Positions 5,303 to 24,996 of a stretch of DNA of 29,889 bases are shown piece after piece. Source of the DNA: Syncephalis fuscata (lineage: Eukaryota; Zoopagomycota; Zoopagomycetes; Zoopagales; Piptocephalidaceae); NCBI GenBank assembly GCA_025786725.1, contig JAHLTZ010000090.1, positions 1 to 29,889 of the forward strand, given 5' to 3'. The position numbers were made by a program, and so were the translations under genes. Below the pieces are notes generated by a model. That model searched no databases. It saw only the letters and a program-made list of their open reading frames with translations, and had not been told where the DNA came from. Position 1 is the first letter of the stretch. Every line of letters begins with the position of its first letter.

Positions 5303-5858
5303 TGTATGTAAATATTGGGACCCGAGTTGCTCGGTGGAAGTGACAGCAAATACATCATTATTGTTTTACAAAACCAAACAATATACCTGTTTTTACCAAA
5401 TAGTTAAATTGTGTAACAAAAATACAAGCGAATATGTCTATTTTTATCATATATACTGGATTATGAACACTGTTAAAGTACTCGTGCAAATAAATAAGAG
5501 CTTGAAGTGAAGACCGGGCAGGTTGTGCGCTGTTTAGTATGCATATAGATATTAAGGGCCGAATCGGTAGGAATGGCGGCAAAAATATCATTATTGTTTT
5601 ACAAAACCAAGCAATATGCTTGCTTTTACCAAATAGTTAGACCGTGTAACGAAAATACAGGCGAATATGTCTATTTTTATCATATGTACTGGATTATAAA
5701 CACCGTTGCAGTACTCGTGCAAATAAATAGCAGATTGAAGTAAAGACCGGGCAGGTTATGCACTATTTTGTATGCATGCGGATATTGAAGACCGAGTCAT
5801 TAAGTGGAAGTGACAGCAAAGACATCATTATTGTTTTATAAAGCCAAACAATATAGAT
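5303..5858 (+). repeat. Tandem repeat, period about 235 bp, roughly 2.4 units
   Basis: Three successive units align with starts near 5303, 5540 and 5771. Each begins with a gtatg...atatt block, continues with a tgacagcaaa...catcattattgtttta block and then a ccaaa(c/g)caatata block. The first two units also share the tatgtctatttttatcata and cgtgcaaataaata strings. The third unit is truncated and runs directly into the conserved 5' leader of the peptide gene at 5960. Divergence is moderate, so the duplication is not very recent. The TATAAA in unit 3 (about 5837-5842) is about 120 nt upstream of the peptide start codon and may act as its TATA box, so the array could supply duplicated promoter sequence. 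Confidence 0.75.
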
Positions 5859-5959: not shown

Positions 5960-6160
5960 ATGAAGCTTTCTATTGCCGCTGTTTGCACTATTGTCGTAGC
6001 TCTTGTAGCCAGTACAGCTATGGTGGATGCTAAACCAGCCTTAATCCGTCGTGATTACAATAACTGCATGTTTGAATGTCGCATGGGTTGTTCCTATCCT
6101 GATTATGGAATGATTTGCAAAACCGTTTGCGACAGAGAATGCCGCCGTGCTAACCCATAA
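5960..6160 (+). CDS. Small secreted Cys-rich peptide, intronless paralogue
   Basis: A 66-residue pre-propeptide. Residues 1-24 (MKLSIAAVCTIVVALVASTA, then MVDA) form a signal peptide. Residues 25-31 (KPALIRR) are a short propeptide ending in a dibasic Kex2-type site. The mature 35 residues hold six cysteines as C-x3-C-x3-C-x8-C-x3-C-x3-C, a symmetric spacing expected for two short helices clamped by disulphides (helical-hairpin-like). I chose the ATG at 5960 because the in-frame upstream ATG at 5933 is not preserved in the paralogue. Signal, propeptide, 5' leader and 3' flank are closely similar to the minus-strand gene at 17305-19347, but the mature region is not and there are no introns. 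Function is unknown; defence, signalling or host/prey interaction would all be guesses. Confidence 0.8.
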   Translation: MKLSIAAVCTIVVALVASTAMVDAKPALIRRDYNNCMFECRMGCSYPDYGMICKTVCDRECRRANP

Positions 6161-6425
6161 ACCCGTAACCCATAACCATAAAAGGATTAGCATTGGTAGT
6201 GCAATCAAGCCACTATTTCAATACACTTTAGATATATATTCGGTGAAAAGCAAGACCATTTGACAAATACGCTGTCCAGTCTATTTATATATCAAGTTTT
6301 GGCCAATGCTCCGGTTTATCCAGTCTTTAATCAATGGAATCATTGTTTTATCAACAAACTTGCATCCAGTTGTTTCTATTCAACTGTGCAAGCTTATAGT
6401 AATAAACTTATGGTTTCATTTTAAC
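6161..6425 (+). other. 3' flank/UTR conserved with the microexon gene
   Basis: From about 6183 to 6425 this DNA matches the minus strand of about 17290-17050 at roughly nine bases in ten by eye, including ttcggtgaaaagcaagacca and gtttctattcaactgtgcaa. An open frame runs through it in both copies (6306-6503 and 17168-16863), but most differences between the copies change amino acids, so it is probably untranslated. Just after the stop codon lies a small slippage-like repeat (acccataaacccgtaaccca). Confidence 0.65.
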
Positions 6426-10602: not shown

Positions 10603-11545
10603 ATGGATATGATCGAAGACCTCGGATACCATTCAGACTGGCGGCACAATGCCACGCGTCAATGGGGTATTCCGCTCCATCCAAGCGGCGAGTTATATTT
10701 GTACGATTACGCAGCCTTAAGAGACGACAGACTGTCCACGCAACAACGACTATTAAGCATTTATTTCGAGTTATCTGTTGATTTAATGATGTCGACTTTG
10801 TTTGCACAAAACTTTTTTAAAGCTGCAGTTATGATTATTAGACAGCCAAACTTTCTTTCCGGATGGTGTTGCATAATTCCCGCCTTTCTTGGAGCTGGCT
10901 GGGGAGTGGGTGTAGTTTTATATCTTCTTGGGCAAACAAGCTGTCGGCCTGTAGTTTGGTTCTTTGTTTTTGCTACTTCAATTTCCAGTATAAGCAACAA
11001 CATAATCATACTGCAAAAAGCCTATATTGCTCTGATCAAGCAGAAGCTAATACTGGGTATTGGCGCTCTGTTTATGATACCGCAAATGGTATTTATGTTT
11101 GTTTTTCTATCCTCCTCCTGGGTCACGACAAATGTTCAAGGAGGCTGTGCCATCCATTATGCTCCCTCAATACCTTACTACTGGTTTGCTTTAAGCATAC
11201 CTATTAACGTCCTATTTTCAACGCTATTTAGTTATGTGGCCTATAAGCAGTACACCACATTTGGAACTAAAGCCTGGAAACGACTGGCGCACGAAGGCAT
11301 ACAAACGATGTGTCTGGTGGTAATTTGTAATATTATTTGTGCAACATGTCTTCTACTTGAAGTAGGAGGCCAATTTGTAGATATGTTTTTTGTCGCAGAC
11401 TGGTAAGTATTTGACAAAATACTATTAGATAATTGCTAATATTAGTAACAGGTTGATTACATCAACTATTTTGGTATATCATTGTAGTACAGCAAGGAAA
11501 AACGTGGTGCGTCAATATCAGTTGGGCGTTGCTAAAACTCACTAA
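10603..11545 (+). CDS. Seven-transmembrane receptor-like protein, paralogue 2
   Basis: A 297-residue paralogue of the protein at 2173-3180, from two exons, 10603-11402 and 11452-11545. The intron (GTAAGT...CAG, 49 nt) splits the same conserved Trp codon in the same phase. Seven hydrophobic segments, an N-terminal NAT sequon, and Cys residues before TM3 (SCRPVVWF) and before TM5 (GGCAIHYAP) match paralogue 1. The cytoplasmic loop AYKQYTTFGTKAWKRLAHEG is the best-conserved block. The C-terminal tail is shorter and unrelated beyond TM7, so the tails have diverged or been exchanged. A membrane receptor-like role is inferred from topology only. The two genes are in the same orientation 7.4 kb apart and enclose the intronless peptide gene. 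Confidence 0.82.
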
Positions 11546-16890: not shown

Positions 16891-17304
16891 GTTAATTGAA
16901 TAGTAGTACTAATATAGCTATACTGCTTCATATTGGTGACCGGTTTATAATTCCTGTACAAGTCTGATATTGGTATGCTTGTTCGATTAGTGTTGTTAAT
17001 TATTATATATAAATTAAATATAAACATATGCAACAAATTATTGCCATTATTAAAATGAAACCATAGATTTATTACTATAAGCTTGCACAGTTGAATAGAA
17101 ACAACTAGATGCAATCTTGTTGGTAACATAATGATTCCATTGATTAAAGACTGGATAAACCGGAGCATTGGCCAAAACTTGATATATAGATAGACTGGAC
17201 GGCGTATTTGTCAAATGGTCTTGCTTTTCACCGAATATATACCTAAAGTGTATTGGAATAGTGGTTTGGTTGCACTACCAATGCTAATGTCTTGAAGCCA
17301 TTGA

Positions 17305-19347
17305 TTATTCTGTATTTACAAATAAAAATATTATATGGTACATAATTAATTTATACTCTACTAATATAATACTACTTACTGCCTATTAGTATTAAGTTGT
17401 TGATACACATGGTGCATAACATGTGGTTAGTGCGTAATTAATTAATATATAATACAACCTACATTCATCTAATATTAATTAGTTGATGGATACAGTAAAT
17501 AGCATGTAGTTAGTGAGTAACCAGTTAGTATACAATATAGCTTACCTTCTATTGATATTAATTTATTGCCGCACACATTACATGGTGTATAATCAGTGCA
17601 TAGTTAGTTAGTACATAATACAACTTACTGCCTATTAATATTAAGTTGTTGATGCATATAATACATGACACAATCAATGCATAATTAATTAATACACACC
17701 ATAACTTACATTCTATTATATTAAACAATTAATGCAATTAGCAAATAACATAGTTAATGTATAGTCAGTTAATATACAATACCACTTACCAGCTATTTAT
17801 ATTAAACAATCGGTACAGTCAGTCAATATTATAGTCAATAAGTAGCCAGTTAATATGCAGCACAACTCACCGCCTGTTGGTATTAAGTTGTTGATTTATA
17901 CAGTAAATGGCATGTGGTTAGTACATAGTCAATTAATACAGAATTTCACATACAATCTATTAATAAGGTTGTTGATGTATACAGTATATAGCACATAATT
18001 AGTGTATAGTTAGTTAATATGCAGTGTTACTTACTTTCTATTGATATTAAATAATTGATATAATCAGTAGATAGCACATAATTAGTGCATAGTTAGTTAA
18101 TATTTAATGTTACTTACGACCTATTATATTAAATTGTTGATTTATACAGTACATGGCATGCAATTAGTAAATATTCAATTAATACATAATACAACTTACG
18201 ACCTATTATATCAAGTTGTTCATGCACACAATACATAGTACATAATTAGCTAGTAGCCAATTAATACACAACATAACTTACGAACTATTAATATTAAGTT
18301 GTTGATACACACAGGACATGGTATATAGTTAGTGCATAGTCAATTAATGCGCAATACTACTTACTCTCTATGGTATTAAGTTGTTGATAAACACAATACG
18401 TGACACAATCAGTGAGTAGTCAGTTAACATACAATGTTGCTTACGCGCTAATATATTAAGTTATTAATATACACAATACATGGCACATAATTAATACATG
18501 ATTAGTTAATATACAATGCTACTTACCGCCTATTAATATTAGGTTATTAATATATACAATGCATGATATATGATTAGTTAATACTCAATTAATATATAAT
18601 ATAACCTACATTCTATTAATATTAATTTGTTGATATACACGGTGCACAATATAAATTAGCACACAGTTGGTTAATACACAATACTACTTACTCTCTATGG
18701 TATTAAGTTATTGATACACATAGTGCATGGTATAGAATTAGTGCATAGCCGATTGATATACAATGTTACTTACCGCCTATTAATATTAAGTTGTTAATAC
18801 ACATGGTGCGTAACATATAATTAGTGAATATCAATTATTATATAATACAACTTGCATTTAGCTAATATTAATTAGTTGATGGACACAGTACATAATATAT
18901 AATTAATGTATATTCAATTAATATACAATACAACCTACCAGCTATTGATTTGTTGATGCATACAGTGCATGACATATAATTAATGAATAGAAATTTAATG
19001 CACAGTACAACTTACGATCTATTATATTAAATAATCGGTACAGTCAGTAAATAGCATAGTTAATATATAGTCAATTAATATACACCACAACTTACCCTCT
19101 ATTAATATTAAATAATTGATACAATTAATAAATAGCATGTGATTAGTGCAGTCAATTAATATACAATATCACATACGAGCTATTATAATAATTATTTAGA
19201 AATACCGTTAGTAAATAAAATGCCATATCATATTCATTGTTATTGCAGCATACCACGACGAACTAAGGCTGGTTTAGCATCCACCATGGCCGTAGCGGCT
19301 ATCAAAGCCACAACGACGATGCAAACGACGGCAATGGAAAGCTTCAT
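17305..19347 (-). CDS. Secreted Cys-rich peptide encoded by 25 exons, 23 of them 3-6 nt
   Basis: Exon 1 (19347-19254) encodes MKLSIAVVCIVVVALIAATA, then MVDA and the propeptide KPALVRR, plus one base (phase 1); it is nearly identical to the intronless paralogue at 5960. Then follow microexons at 19179-19177, 19098-19096, 19018-19016, 18941-18939, 18861-18856, 18776-18774, 18694-18692, 18612-18610, 18529-18527, 18447-18445, 18367-18365, 18284-18282, 18202-18200, 18120-18118, 18037-18035, 17956-17954, 17873-17871, 17792-17790, 17712-17710, 17631-17629, 17548-17546, 17468-17463 and 17382-17380. The terminal exon starts at 17309, with TAA at 17307-17305. Acceptors are TAG (one CAG); donors are GTAAGT/C, GTATGT, GTAGGT, GTGAGT and one GCAAGT. 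The joined frame is 57 codons. The 26-residue mature part has cysteines at C-x2-C-x7-C-x2-C-x3-C, and its C-terminal KDECK resembles DREC of the paralogue. Function unknown; splicing is predicted, not observed. Confidence 0.8.
17310..19253 (-). repeat. Tandem intron array, 82-bp period, about 23 units
   Basis: Twenty-three copies of a 77-84 bp unit, each consisting of one complete intron plus one 3-nt (twice 6-nt) exon. On the plus strand each unit shows the signature cttac-NNN-ctatta(ata)ttaa. On the minus strand this is ttaa...taatag | NNN | gtaag. Most of the rest of the unit (gttgttgat.cacaca.tacatggcatataattagtgcatagtcaattaatata.aata.aa) is conserved with substitutions and small indels. 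The NNN position takes 14 different triplets among 21 units while the bases on either side are nearly fixed. The first intron (19253-19180, 74 nt) and last intron (17379-17310, 70 nt) are diverged from the consensus where they meet the unique exons. Confidence 0.92.
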
Positions 19348-22592: not shown

Positions 22593-24824
22593 CTATTTGG
22601 ACGACTCATCAAGAGTCGTTAGATTAGTAGATACAGTTTGACGGAAGTTACCAATAGCACGGGCCATAGTACGTAGTAATGTGGTGCGTCGTTGTAATGG
22701 ACGATGATCTGTTGCCGCTGTTGCAGTCTCTGATCCATCACTGCCATTATATTTGTTACTTGGTTGAGATGATGTTATAGTAGCTCGTCTCAATCTATGA
22801 ACTAATTTCCCTTCTTTATTACGCATAGGTAATCGATTGGGTGTGGCTAAATGAATCCGTGGCGCTGCCTTCTTAACTCGTACCATAGTGATGGCGCGTG
22901 GCCGTACACAAATCAGTAGATCGTGTCCAACTAAACCAACTGACCATCGTTGTCGTTCAAGTCCAGGACGTATACGATGCTGCCGTTTATGGGCCAAATC
23001 CCATTCATCTAGCAATAAAAAGTCTGTTCTAGTTAATTGATCATCAGCCGATATAGATGATATTAATGGTGATGGGATCTCTTCTAGTTGATGTAAATAC
23101 TGTTCACTCTTTTCAGTATCGACTAGAACGAGTTCACCATGAAAGGTGGCCCCCATAAGCCATAAGTCACCCACAATGGATTGTGGTATGCCTTCATGAG
23201 GTAGTCCGGGTATACCGCGTAATACTTGGCCCGTCTCTAGAGAAATAATACGAATCATCGATTCAGATGAAAGCAGCAGTAAATGCCGTCGATTAGGTGC
23301 AGGTATAACCGACTGGACCGTGTAACGCGGGCCTGTACAATGCCACAATTGCCCATTTTTACTGGTTGTAGTATGACTTAGCGAGTGCAGTAAAATAAAT
23401 GGCGTTAATCGCTGGTGTTCATCACGGGTCATGCCTGCCAATACAACACGCGTATTGTCCACTTGAGTTGATACAGTTCGGTGGATTTCATCAGGACGGC
23501 TGCCCAAACTACCCTCACTACTAAGACCCCATCGTTGTAAATTAGATTGAAGTTCGCCTGTATCATCAGCGCCGTCAATTGATGGTCGAATAAGTTGCCA
23601 GTTAAATTGTTGTGTTTCCCTATCATAATTATGGCGATAGACTAGTACATCGATAATAGATGCATCTGATAAAGGATAGGAGCGTGATGAACGGATTTTA
23701 TGTAAATGACAACATCCAGCTGCACCTTCTGCAACTACTATCGACTGCTTTAATTCATCAACTGACGTTATCGTATTTGTTTTTTGCGCATTTTGTTTAT
23801 CCATTGCCAGTTGACAAAACGTAAATGTCCAGTGGTGTTCACTAGAATTGTATAAAATATCTGTGGCTGTTTCATAGTTATGTGGCTGATACTGAGATTT
23901 ACTAATAGCGTTGGTTCGCTGTTGGTACCGTTGACGATATAGCAGAGAATGGTTGCAAATGGCCGATATAATAAATGGATATTGTGATCCAGAATACCAG
24001 CAAAGTGTACGGTCTACTAAACGCCATATCCAAATGGCTGAGCGCCACTGGCTTGTTGTACCTGTTGTACTAGCAGCAATAATAGTAACTACTGCATAGT
24101 CATTACCGCTTAATCGACCATGTATTTCATGGAACGGTGCATAACGAGCATTACTCCATAATTCAATATCGCCATCGTCAATACTAAGATGTTGATTATT
24201 ACCATTGCGTTTTATTAGTCGAGGATCAAGCGATAATGGACAAAGTCGTGTTGGTGATGCCCATTGAGAAATATTGGTTATTTCAGGGTCAGTTGAAGGT
24301 GGATGGCATGCTAGCAGAATGGTAAGTGGTTCGGTGCATGCCACCAATGACCATCCTTGTATATTAGCATCTAGTAGTTTTAATTCACCAGGAAATAACG
24401 GTTCGGAGACTTGTCGATCTGTATTGAGTGTATCCAGTTGCGGTAGAATGACTGGAAGCGACGCCACTGTTCCATGTTTCCAGTTTAATGGTGCAGCAGC
24501 GCGTAGACGGAGAAAGGTTAACCAACGAGCCGATGATCGTTTCGCTGGCATAGAAAGCTGGTCAGTATCATTTTCATCGTTGTTAGTAGTAGTAGTAGTT
24601 GATGAAATAGCCGGCAGTGTTGACGATATTAGCCAAATAGGTTCTTCGTCACCAAATTGTTCCTGATAGTGATAGCGCCATAAGCGTTCACTTTGGCAAA
24701 CTGCATCACCTAACCAGCGAGCACAGGTAGCTAAAGAAATAAGTGATTCTTGGTCCAAGTAGAGTAGAATGGCTTCCAACAATTCGATTGGCAATGCAAG
24801 TCGGTGCTTTGAACTATTCGACAT
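22593..24824 (-). CDS. F-box protein with large C-terminal domain
   Basis: An intronless 743-residue protein. An F-box lies at about residues 8-52: RLALPIELLEAILLYLDQES, then LISLATCARWLGDAVC and the SERLWRYHY end. F-box proteins bind Skp1 and bring substrates to SCF ubiquitin ligases. The remaining roughly 690 residues have short hydrophobic strands and patches such as HLLLLSSESMIRIISLETGQ, typical of beta-propeller-like substrate domains, though no clear WD motif is seen. The frame is open 35 codons further upstream to 24929, but that extension is hydrophobic and lies before the F-box; the ATG at 24824 (MSNSSKHRLALPIELLEAIL) fits the domain start better. The lack of introns contrasts with most neighbouring genes. 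The substrate is unknown. Confidence 0.85.
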   Translation of the reverse strand: MSNSSKHRLALPIELLEAILLYLDQESLISLATCARWLGDAVCQSERLWRYHYQEQFGDEEPIWLISSTLPAISSTTTTTNNDENDTDQLSMPAKRSSARWLTFLRLRAAAPLNWKHGTVASLPVILPQLDTLNTDRQVSEPLFPGELKLLDANIQGWSLVACTEPLTILLACHPPSTDPEITNISQWASPTRLCPLSLDPRLIKRNGNNQHLSIDDGDIELWSNARYAPFHEIHGRLSGNDYAVVTIIAASTTGTTSQWRSAIWIWRLVDRTLCWYSGSQYPFIISAICNHSLLYRQRYQQRTNAISKSQYQPHNYETATDILYNSSEHHWTFTFCQLAMDKQNAQKTNTITSVDELKQSIVVAEGAAGCCHLHKIRSSRSYPLSDASIIDVLVYRHNYDRETQQFNWQLIRPSIDGADDTGELQSNLQRWGLSSEGSLGSRPDEIHRTVSTQVDNTRVVLAGMTRDEHQRLTPFILLHSLSHTTTSKNGQLWHCTGPRYTVQSVIPAPNRRHLLLLSSESMIRIISLETGQVLRGIPGLPHEGIPQSIVGDLWLMGATFHGELVLVDTEKSEQYLHQLEEIPSPLISSISADDQLTRTDFLLLDEWDLAHKRQHRIRPGLERQRWSVGLVGHDLLICVRPRAITMVRVKKAAPRIHLATPNRLPMRNKEGKLVHRLRRATITSSQPSNKYNGSDGSETATAATDHRPLQRRTTLLRTMARAIGNFRQTVSTNLTTLDESSK

Positions 24825-24996
24825 GATCAGTAAGCATAGAGTGGCCGTCAACAGATGGTGTGTGTATGTGCCTAGTTGGTTAACTACTATAGTTATGATA
24901 GCTAAAAGTGTAATCACAAGCTTGCCCACTTATTTAGTTATAAAGATGAAGACTGCCCTGTATCGGGAGTACATATAGAGAAGGCGAAAGAGAGAC

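Follow-up and report, generated by a model that had tools for sequence, protein, structure and literature searches.

Consecutive three-nucleotide exons in Syncephalis fuscata predicted to encode a fast-evolving family of cysteine-rich peptides

We analyzed a window of 29,889 nucleotides (nt) from the mycoparasite Syncephalis fuscata (positions 1 to 29,889 of contig JAHLTZ010000090.1, assembly GCA_025786725.1) and focused on a gene on its minus strand, 19347-17305, that consists of a signal/propeptide exon, 21 exons of 3 nt, two exons of 6 nt, and a terminal exon. Judged from its sequence, this is very probably a protein-coding gene of a large, fast-evolving S. fuscata family in which the mature peptide is encoded in consecutive spliced microexons. 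The genomic data supporting this are the anatomy of the arrays, an apparent coding capacity that depends on the order of the microexons, near-fixed splice sites around fast-changing microexons, and differences between copies that comprise whole exon-intron units.

The window array was scanned for exons of any length from 0 to 15 nt with the pattern [CT]AG + exon + G[TC][AG]NG[TC]. Length 3 was found 21 times and length 6 twice, and the remaining lengths yielded just 13 and 15, one each; in 1,000 first-order Markov simulations of the array, the number of 3-nt cases averaged 0.34 and had a maximum of 4. Each microexon is preceded by a YAG acceptor and followed by a donor with G at position +5, and the introns of the array are 70 to 80 nt long. 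The original prediction, which described 21 segments of 3 nt plus two segments of 6 nt bordered by AG and a GTAAGT-like donor, was confirmed, with the amendment that 22 of the donors are GT and one, at 18855, is GC. Exon 1 codes for MKLSIAVVCIVVVALIAATAMVDAKPALVRR plus one extra base ahead of its donor, and all junctions of the window gene are in phase 1, so that a 3-nt microexon provides positions 2 and 3 of one codon and then position 1 of the next. Because exon 1 ends in this phase, the claim that each codon is its own exon holds in the sense that every 3-nt exon adds one codon's worth and fails in the sense that the introns are in phase 1 and codons straddle exons. The joined frame past Arg-Arg, AQDPAKCEKCAQIRRQNCAECKDECK, has the 26 codons that had been foreseen, including five cysteine (Cys) codons, every one of them TGC, and ends at the stop TAA. 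The signal peptide, its cleavage, and a Kex2-like cut after Arg-Arg were judged by eye and from general knowledge. The intronless paralogue that had been noted at 5960 is also real, and it has the 3' untranslated region (3'-UTR) motif ATTAGCATTGGTAGTGCAA in common with the array gene.

The window array is not unique. When the S. fuscata genome (28.95 Mb, 299 contigs) was searched with microexon, exon-1, first-intron, and 3'-UTR motifs, the same architecture was found at many loci. The microexon pattern CTTACNNNCTATTA gave 2,915 matches versus 22 for the reversed control, and a variant with an additional leading T gave one match and was uninformative. The exon-1 peptide was located at at least 150 places (the best 150 of 317 candidates, with paired copies and intronless genes included), the motif at the start of the first intron at 123 places with up to 2 mismatches versus 3 for the control (paired-contig copies are included, and some places may be other repeats), and a 25-base pattern overlapping the 3'-UTR motif at 127 places with up to 3 mismatches versus 0 for the control (again with paired copies and intronless genes included). 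We modelled 28 of these TAATAGNNNGTAAG arrays, 16 completely, leaving exon length free from 1 to 30 nt and using splice-site models trained on strict 3- and 6-nt cases. Among the 686 distinct microexons of the 28 arrays, 641 were 3 nt, 32 were 6 nt, and 13 were of other lengths; when the first 58 loci were scanned without training, length 3 occurred 594 times, length 6 occurred 21 times, and any other length at most 10 times. The modelled introns had a median length of 78 nt (747 of 775 were within 62 to 92 nt), complete arrays held 13 to 48 microexons, and GC donors made up approximately 6% of the 496 training sites. Exon 1 ended in phase 1 in all 28 modelled arrays, and this phase was kept into the terminal exon in 14 of the 16 complete ones, with the terminal acceptor AAATACAG present in 13 of the 16; the terminal acceptors of arrays L045 and L056 were probably mis-chosen by the script, and the L045 C terminus is uncertain. 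Because the strict motif fits 460 of the 686 modelled microexons, the genome may by extrapolation contain about 4,350 in total. A profile search of the protein database returned 14 family proteins at E <= 0.01, all from S. fuscata. The joined peptides of L059, L060, and L065, which include exons of 9, 12, or 15 nt, are without Cys and may represent a second peptide class or wrong models.

Read in genomic order as phase-1 codons, the 16 complete arrays (which take in the near-identical pairs window/L039 and L048/L066) contained 2 stops and 84 Cys among 508 codons. When the order of the microexons was shuffled within genes 2,000 times, the means were 28.3 stops and 37.4 Cys, and the observed values were never reached. 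For the first 12 complete arrays, phase 1 gave 1 stop and 69 Cys, phase 0 gave 2 stops and 1 Cys, and phase 2 gave 33 stops and 19 Cys; the phase-0 and phase-2 readings were rejected on these counts. Exactly six Cys were present in 10 of the 16 complete arrays, and elsewhere the number was five in the window gene, eight in L045, four in L063, three in L068, and two in both L048 and L066. The spliced L053 peptide matched open reading frames (ORFs) at eight places over its full 64 residues with 58 to 65% identity, about half of these residues being the shared signal region.

In the five near-identical pairs other than the window pair, differences amounted to 1 in 710 for donor hexamers, 5 in 713 for acceptor hexamers, 3 in 390 for microexons, and 204 in 8,908 for introns (Fisher's test versus introns, P = 4e-6, P = 0.003, and P = 0.05, respectively). 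Two of the three microexon changes were synonymous, and the third altered the stop codon to which the terminal exon of L053 contributes (no terminal exon is present in the L069 model); at the intron rate, approximately 7 nonsynonymous changes would have been expected. The remaining comparisons were restricted to pairs with no fewer than 30 microexon bases, no fewer than 600 intron bases, and an intron identity of at least 0.78, which 31 of 378 array pairs passed. Pairs at 78 to 80% intron identity are indistinguishable from misaligned units, shifted units having identities of 69 to 78%, or 81 to 92% if the register is restored. In a unit-by-unit check of five pairs, L053/L068, L055/L032, and L063/L037 were in register and the other two were out by an insertion or deletion, and only these three were used, because misaligned units could explain many of the other distant pairs. 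Introns and microexons were 87% and 54% (49/90) identical in L053/L068, 89% and 67% (34/51) in L055/L032, and 88% and 72% (28/39) in L063/L037, and shifted units in these pairs had 70 to 78% intron identity. Identical positions in acceptor hexamers, donor hexamers, and exon 1 were 183/185, 183/185, and 92/94 for L053/L068; 97/102, 107/108, and 94/97 for L055/L032; and 73/78, 75/78, and 92/94 for L063/L037, or 94 to 99% for the splice hexamers and 97 to 98% for exon 1. Across the three pairs, change in the 3-nt slots is two- to threefold that in the surrounding introns, and the splice sites are near-fixed. The simplest reading of this pattern would be diversifying selection on the mature peptide; a broken frame, as in L068 and L063, would not by itself cause exons to change faster than introns.

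Copies also differ by entire units. The introns of the window gene and its partner L039 are approximately 98% identical (29 of 1,593 bases differ), their microexons differ at 4 of 75 bases with three of the changes nonsynonymous, and the two genes have 23 and 28 microexons, respectively. Two gaps separate them, one of 81 nt that holds one microexon and one of 824 nt that holds four microexons and a foreign insertion, and there is no other gap in the aligned gene. The partner peptide, AQDPAKCERCVERCARIRRQNCAEKCKDECK, has six Cys, and the window copy probably represents a contracted form of this 28-microexon partner. In the pair L059/L060, a gap of 162 nt corresponds to two microexons, and two further microexons are missing in the L059 model only. 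Whole-unit differences were present in two of the six near-identical pairs and were found neither in the other four nor in the more distant L053/L068. The sharing of intron 5-mers was 0.385 at distance 1, 0.323 at distance 12, and 0.339 between genes; as expected from local tandem duplication, neighbouring introns of a gene are thus more alike than distant ones.

We propose that, once transcribed, exon 1 of such a gene would provide a signal peptide and a KPALVRR propeptide, with a Kex2-type cut expected after Arg-Arg, and that the mature peptide would be encoded in the 13 to 48 successive microexons, nearly all 3 or 6 nt, that lie between homologous phase-1 introns of approximately 78 nt. The spliceosome would remove every intron, so that each gene would yield a single main mRNA and, in most cases, a short secreted peptide with six Cys. 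A 3-nt exon is too small for two splicing complexes at a time, and because it cannot seat both at once, the introns would probably be removed one by one through intron definition, with each ligation bringing the growing exon to the next donor. Since a unit is an intron plus a multiple of 3 nt and the introns are alike and all in phase 1, unequal recombination inside introns would be frame-safe; it would add or drop whole residues without a frameshift and could have caused the unit differences between copies. From the lifestyle of this mycoparasite, one may guess that the peptides act toward its fungal host. We give about an even chance to a broader picture in which the spliceosome serves as a residue-by-residue peptide assembler, a minisatellite of approximately 81 bp has become an always in-frame cassette array in which recombination between introns inserts, deletes, or swaps individual residues of fast-diversifying secreted peptides, and the intronless paralogues are reverse-transcribed snapshots.

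The intronless paralogues, which can be read directly, have a six-Cys framework like that of the array genes and share exon 1 and the 3'-UTR motif with them. Several continue past their last codons into terminal-exon-like sequence: L076 contains AATAATCGATGGTTTCAAGACAT, which is the first 23 bases of the L051 and L057 terminal exon and through which the L076 frame reads, and L071 has AAA TAA at the terminal-exon junction, as does the window gene. Such ends fit an origin from reverse-transcribed mRNA. In a tree of 26 genes built from exon 1 and its flanks, the intronless genes were not one clade, and there were four label changes, at least two of them forced by well-supported branches, with no direction given by the tree. 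Pfam returned no family for the intronless paralogue in the window at E 0.001; with E up to 1 and 13 alignment members, eight families were returned, each in one member, and the best of these, Toxin_2 (scorpion short toxin; E 0.00025), is taken as a resemblance of Cys pattern. A structure model of the window paralogue had low confidence (pLDDT, the predicted local distance difference test score, was 64.5). Vicilin peptides (alpha-hairpinin, C-X3-C ... C-X3-C) were among PDB matches with weak E values only (0.79 to 8.9). Directly upstream of this paralogue, at 5331-5855, a 233-nt unit is repeated 2.2 times and is perhaps duplicated promoter sequence.

One or two tiny exons appear to be part of the public gene models P0006 and P0009. 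When up to three introns were allowed, the two P0006 reconstructions richest in canonical sites used the 3-nt exon CTC at canonical borders, and both then read through the third intron. The P0009 model, on C239, links residues 1-32 with residues 34-60 over 230 nt, a spacing that, taken by itself and apart from the locus sequence, fits three introns and two 3-nt exons; the 3'-UTR motif lies at C239:35052, some 2.6 kb past the end of this model. P0001 could be threaded with a second exon that starts at the first microexon acceptor and reads on, as in the 8 listed of its 12 threadings.

A number of observations weigh against our interpretation. The window copy has five Cys only. Over all six near-identical pairs, microexons were not more conserved than introns (7/465 versus 233/10,501 differences; P = 0.42), and in all 25 filtered pairs that were not near-identical, microexons were less alike than introns; the idea of general purifying selection on the microexons was dropped because of these two comparisons. 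The fast change of the microexons may reflect lost constraint together with homogenised introns instead of diversifying selection. The 13-microexon pair L048/L066 had no order signal and contained both stops of the 16-array set, near its end, and a 2-nt exon breaks the frame of the complete arrays L063 and L068. When 12 spliced peptides were each compared with the most similar of 12 intronless genes, only 7 of them scored above every one of the 200 order shuffles made from the same gene, the number of shuffles as good as the real order being 1 for L040, 13 for L051, 1 for L055, 7 for L057, and 4 for L045; L048 and L066, with a mature part of less than 20 residues, and L063 and L068, with no stop, were left out of this test. 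Public models that enter an array read into an early intron and stop. P0006, whose exon 1 is that of the L039 gene and whose contig equals that of L039 in length, had no reconstruction with canonical sites only, and its second 3-nt exon needs noncanonical borders, in one case 2 nt off predicted microexon 2. P0007 has a single intron and skips the array.

These public models bear on a truncating read-through, in which the first one or two introns would be spliced, translation would stop in the next intron, and the remaining array would be untranslated. P0006 and P0009, in which tiny exons seem to be joined before the frame runs on into an intron and meets a stop, and P0001, threadable from the first microexon acceptor onward, are as this explanation predicts, but the order and Cys signal extends to the end of the arrays, and both phase 1 and the acceptor AAATACAG reach the terminal exon in most complete arrays, making it highly improbable. 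It is hardly credible that the arrays are a noncoding minisatellite, that is, a tandem repeat of approximately 81 nt that came to lie behind signal-peptide exons by spreading, retains splice-like borders for a different reason, and encodes no mature peptide. Tandem Repeats Finder gave array periods near 77 to 83, and several arrays have broken frames, both as might be expected of such a repeat. However, the reading depends on phase and on unit order (2 stops versus 28 expected), the joined Cys framework resembles that of the intronless genes, and a minisatellite without a coding role is disfavoured because it gives no reason for fast change limited to the 3-nt slots, which evolve faster than the introns between near-fixed splice hexamers.

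If the arrays are coding, their microexons could instead be included or skipped at will, so that one gene would give many peptide variants. Skipping would keep the frame for the great majority of microexons, which are symmetric (3 or 6 nt in 673 of 686 cases), and splice-site strength varies, as the GC donors illustrate; nevertheless, full reading gives exactly six Cys in 10 of the 16 complete arrays, which suggests selection on full inclusion and renders combinatorial splicing improbable. As to origin, the intronless genes could be ancestral and the arrays could have arisen from an introner-like burst of introns, instead of the intronless genes being cDNA-type copies. The intronless genes not forming one clade and the two or more forced changes in the tree are compatible with this, as either direction may have recurred. 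Against it, 99 of the first 100 listed microexon-motif places (of 2,915) lie within seven clusters, and the intronless genes are without all introns at once and run into terminal-exon-like sequence, as reverse-transcribed mRNA would. We regard an intron burst as rather unlikely.

Micro-exon genes of schistosomes generate protein variants by alternative splicing. Their exons are described in the cited excerpts as 6 to 81 bp, or 3 to 81 bp in the abstract, and mostly 15 bp, with introns of 0.1 to 5 kb (PMC10526429). The S. fuscata arrays resemble these genes, as there portrayed, in that a parasite's secreted proteins are encoded in many consecutive tiny exons that are mostly a multiple of three and are hard to annotate automatically (PMC10526429). 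The features shared by S. fuscata are a signal peptide, judged by eye, followed by many consecutive small exons that are a multiple of three. Compared by description, the S. fuscata genes differ in that 641 of 686 exons are 3 nt and in their homologous tandem introns of approximately 78 nt. Exons of the aphid bicycle genes are longer than 3 nt. The excerpts describe these genes as fast-evolving putative effectors of about 17 exons each, whose internal exons are unusually small and nearly always have codon position 2 as their first base, and mention an aphid "megacycle" gene with more than 100 microexons (PMC9168663). S. fuscata microexons likewise begin at codon position 2, with exon 1 ending in phase 1 in 28/28 arrays and 673/686 microexons keeping the phase; they differ from bicycle genes, as these are described, by tandem-homologous introns and single-codon exons (PMC9168663).

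Isolated very small exons are described in excerpts on the 3-bp exon of Drosophila homothorax, a 1-nt exon in Arabidopsis, and small plant microexons (PMC7392893, PMC4674806, PMC8831610); the smallest constitutive exon known before one of these studies was 6 nt (PMC4674806), and an abstract from 2024 states that functional microexons had not been described in filamentous fungi before (PMC11121469). Such cases show that the spliceosome can include exons of 1 to 15 nt, whereas these excerpts mention no arrays in which 13 to 48 of them follow one another, as in S. fuscata. Introners scatter through ordinary genes. These introner-like elements are, according to the excerpt, invasive introns that multiply in fungal genomes (PMC4457414). 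Of those first 100 listed motif places (of 2,915) in S. fuscata, 99 lie in arrays. Venom-peptide-like families combine a conserved signal region with a hypervariable, Cys-rich mature part. The S. fuscata family is similar in that exon 1 is nearly constant, the mature part is fast, and the Cys framework is kept; we know of no venom-peptide-like family that is split into single-codon exons.

Such arrays were not found described in an open-access library, most subscription papers and preprints being outside the scope of this search. A new architecture had been suggested in the original prediction and is supported by the exon models of free length, the order shuffles, the Cys framework, the near-fixed splice sites, and the public models; its proposed use in varying a peptide stands in an evolutionary sense, as near-identical copies differ by entire exon-intron units. 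If the genes are expressed as read, exons at the lower limit of size would be the norm throughout a family instead of an isolated rarity, a spliceosome would be able to process 14 to 49 introns that flank 3-nt exons within a single short transcript, and there would be a new route to peptide diversity in which insertions and deletions are always whole residues. Gene finders would miss such genes (14 database proteins versus at least 150 exon-1 places), and arrays with paired copies in one genome would offer a natural system in which to study intron definition and recursive splicing.

Table 1. Positions of the array gene, its intronless paralogue, and the motif common to both in the window.
Feature	Position	Strand	Match
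Exon 1: signal peptide and KPALVRR propeptide, putative dibasic Kex2-like site, phase 1 end	19254..19347	-	
Microexon 1, CTC	19177..19179	-	
Microexon 2, AGG	19096..19098	-	
Microexon 3, ATC	19016..19018	-	
Microexon 4, CTG	18939..18941	-	
Microexon 5, CTAAAT, 6 nt, GC donor	18856..18861	-	
Microexon 6, GCG	18774..18776	-	
Microexon 7, AGA; 3' of it, up to microexon 8, the 824-nt partner segment (4 microexons and insertion) is absent	18692..18694	-	
Microexon 8, AAT	18610..18612	-	
Microexon 9, GCG	18527..18529	-	
Microexon 10, CGC	18445..18447	-	
Microexon 11, AGA	18365..18367	-	
Microexon 12, TTC	18282..18284	-	
Microexon 13, GTC	18200..18202	-	
Microexon 14, GTC	18118..18120	-	
Microexon 15, AAA	18035..18037	-	
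Microexon 16, ATT	17954..17956	-	
Microexon 17, GCG	17871..17873	-	
Microexon 18, CTG; 3' of it, up to microexon 19, one 81-nt partner unit (1 microexon) is absent	17790..17792	-	
Microexon 19, AAT	17710..17712	-	
Microexon 20, GCA	17629..17631	-	
Microexon 21, AAG	17546..17548	-	
Microexon 22, ATGAAT, 6 nt	17463..17468	-	
Microexon 23, GCA	17380..17382	-	
Start of terminal exon past acceptor AAATACAG: AA and stop TAA (17307-17305)	17305..17309	-	
3'-UTR motif ATTAGCATTGGTAGTGCAA, common to intronless paralogue	17270..17288	-	19/19 bases
Intronless paralogue: same signal/propeptide, then unbroken six-Cys peptide	5960..6157	+	
3'-UTR motif ATTAGCATTGGTAGTGCAA behind intronless paralogue	6186..6204	+	

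Insertions, about 400 nt long or longer, interrupt some array introns. Those of about 400 to 500 nt in L039 (at about 1230-1720 of its reverse complement), L048, L049, L052 intron 8, and L069 are flanked by direct repeats of 8 to 16 bases, which we read as putative target-site duplications; at other intron insertions the detected repeat was shorter, of low complexity, or absent. In the pair L053/L069, the predicted peptide is not altered by an insertion. By eye, some insertions resemble tRNA at their right ends. ARAGORN found nothing in the window, L039, L048, L049, L052, or L069, and a tRNA-derived origin is for this reason unconfirmed; that the insertions are a retroposon of the short interspersed nuclear element (SINE) type is only a suggestion. 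Rfam at gathering scores returned nothing in the window, L048, or L049.

Elsewhere in the window lies an F-box gene, at 22593-24929, to which the genome contains a single further match, at C289:362274-364619 with 99% identity, and the exon-1 peptide search located partners for both the array gene and the intronless gene of the window on C289. Because of the 99% match of the F-box gene, the window contig is probably the other haplotype of this C289 region or a recent duplicate of it. The ORFs at 2173-2967 and 10603-11406, both on the plus strand, encode two proteins that are related to each other and seem to be of the multi-pass membrane type, for which Pfam gave no match, and both end in DW just before GT. 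By eye, an esterase gene in the window has an ordinary-looking intron with similar signals, GTAAGT...TACTAAC...TAATAAG.

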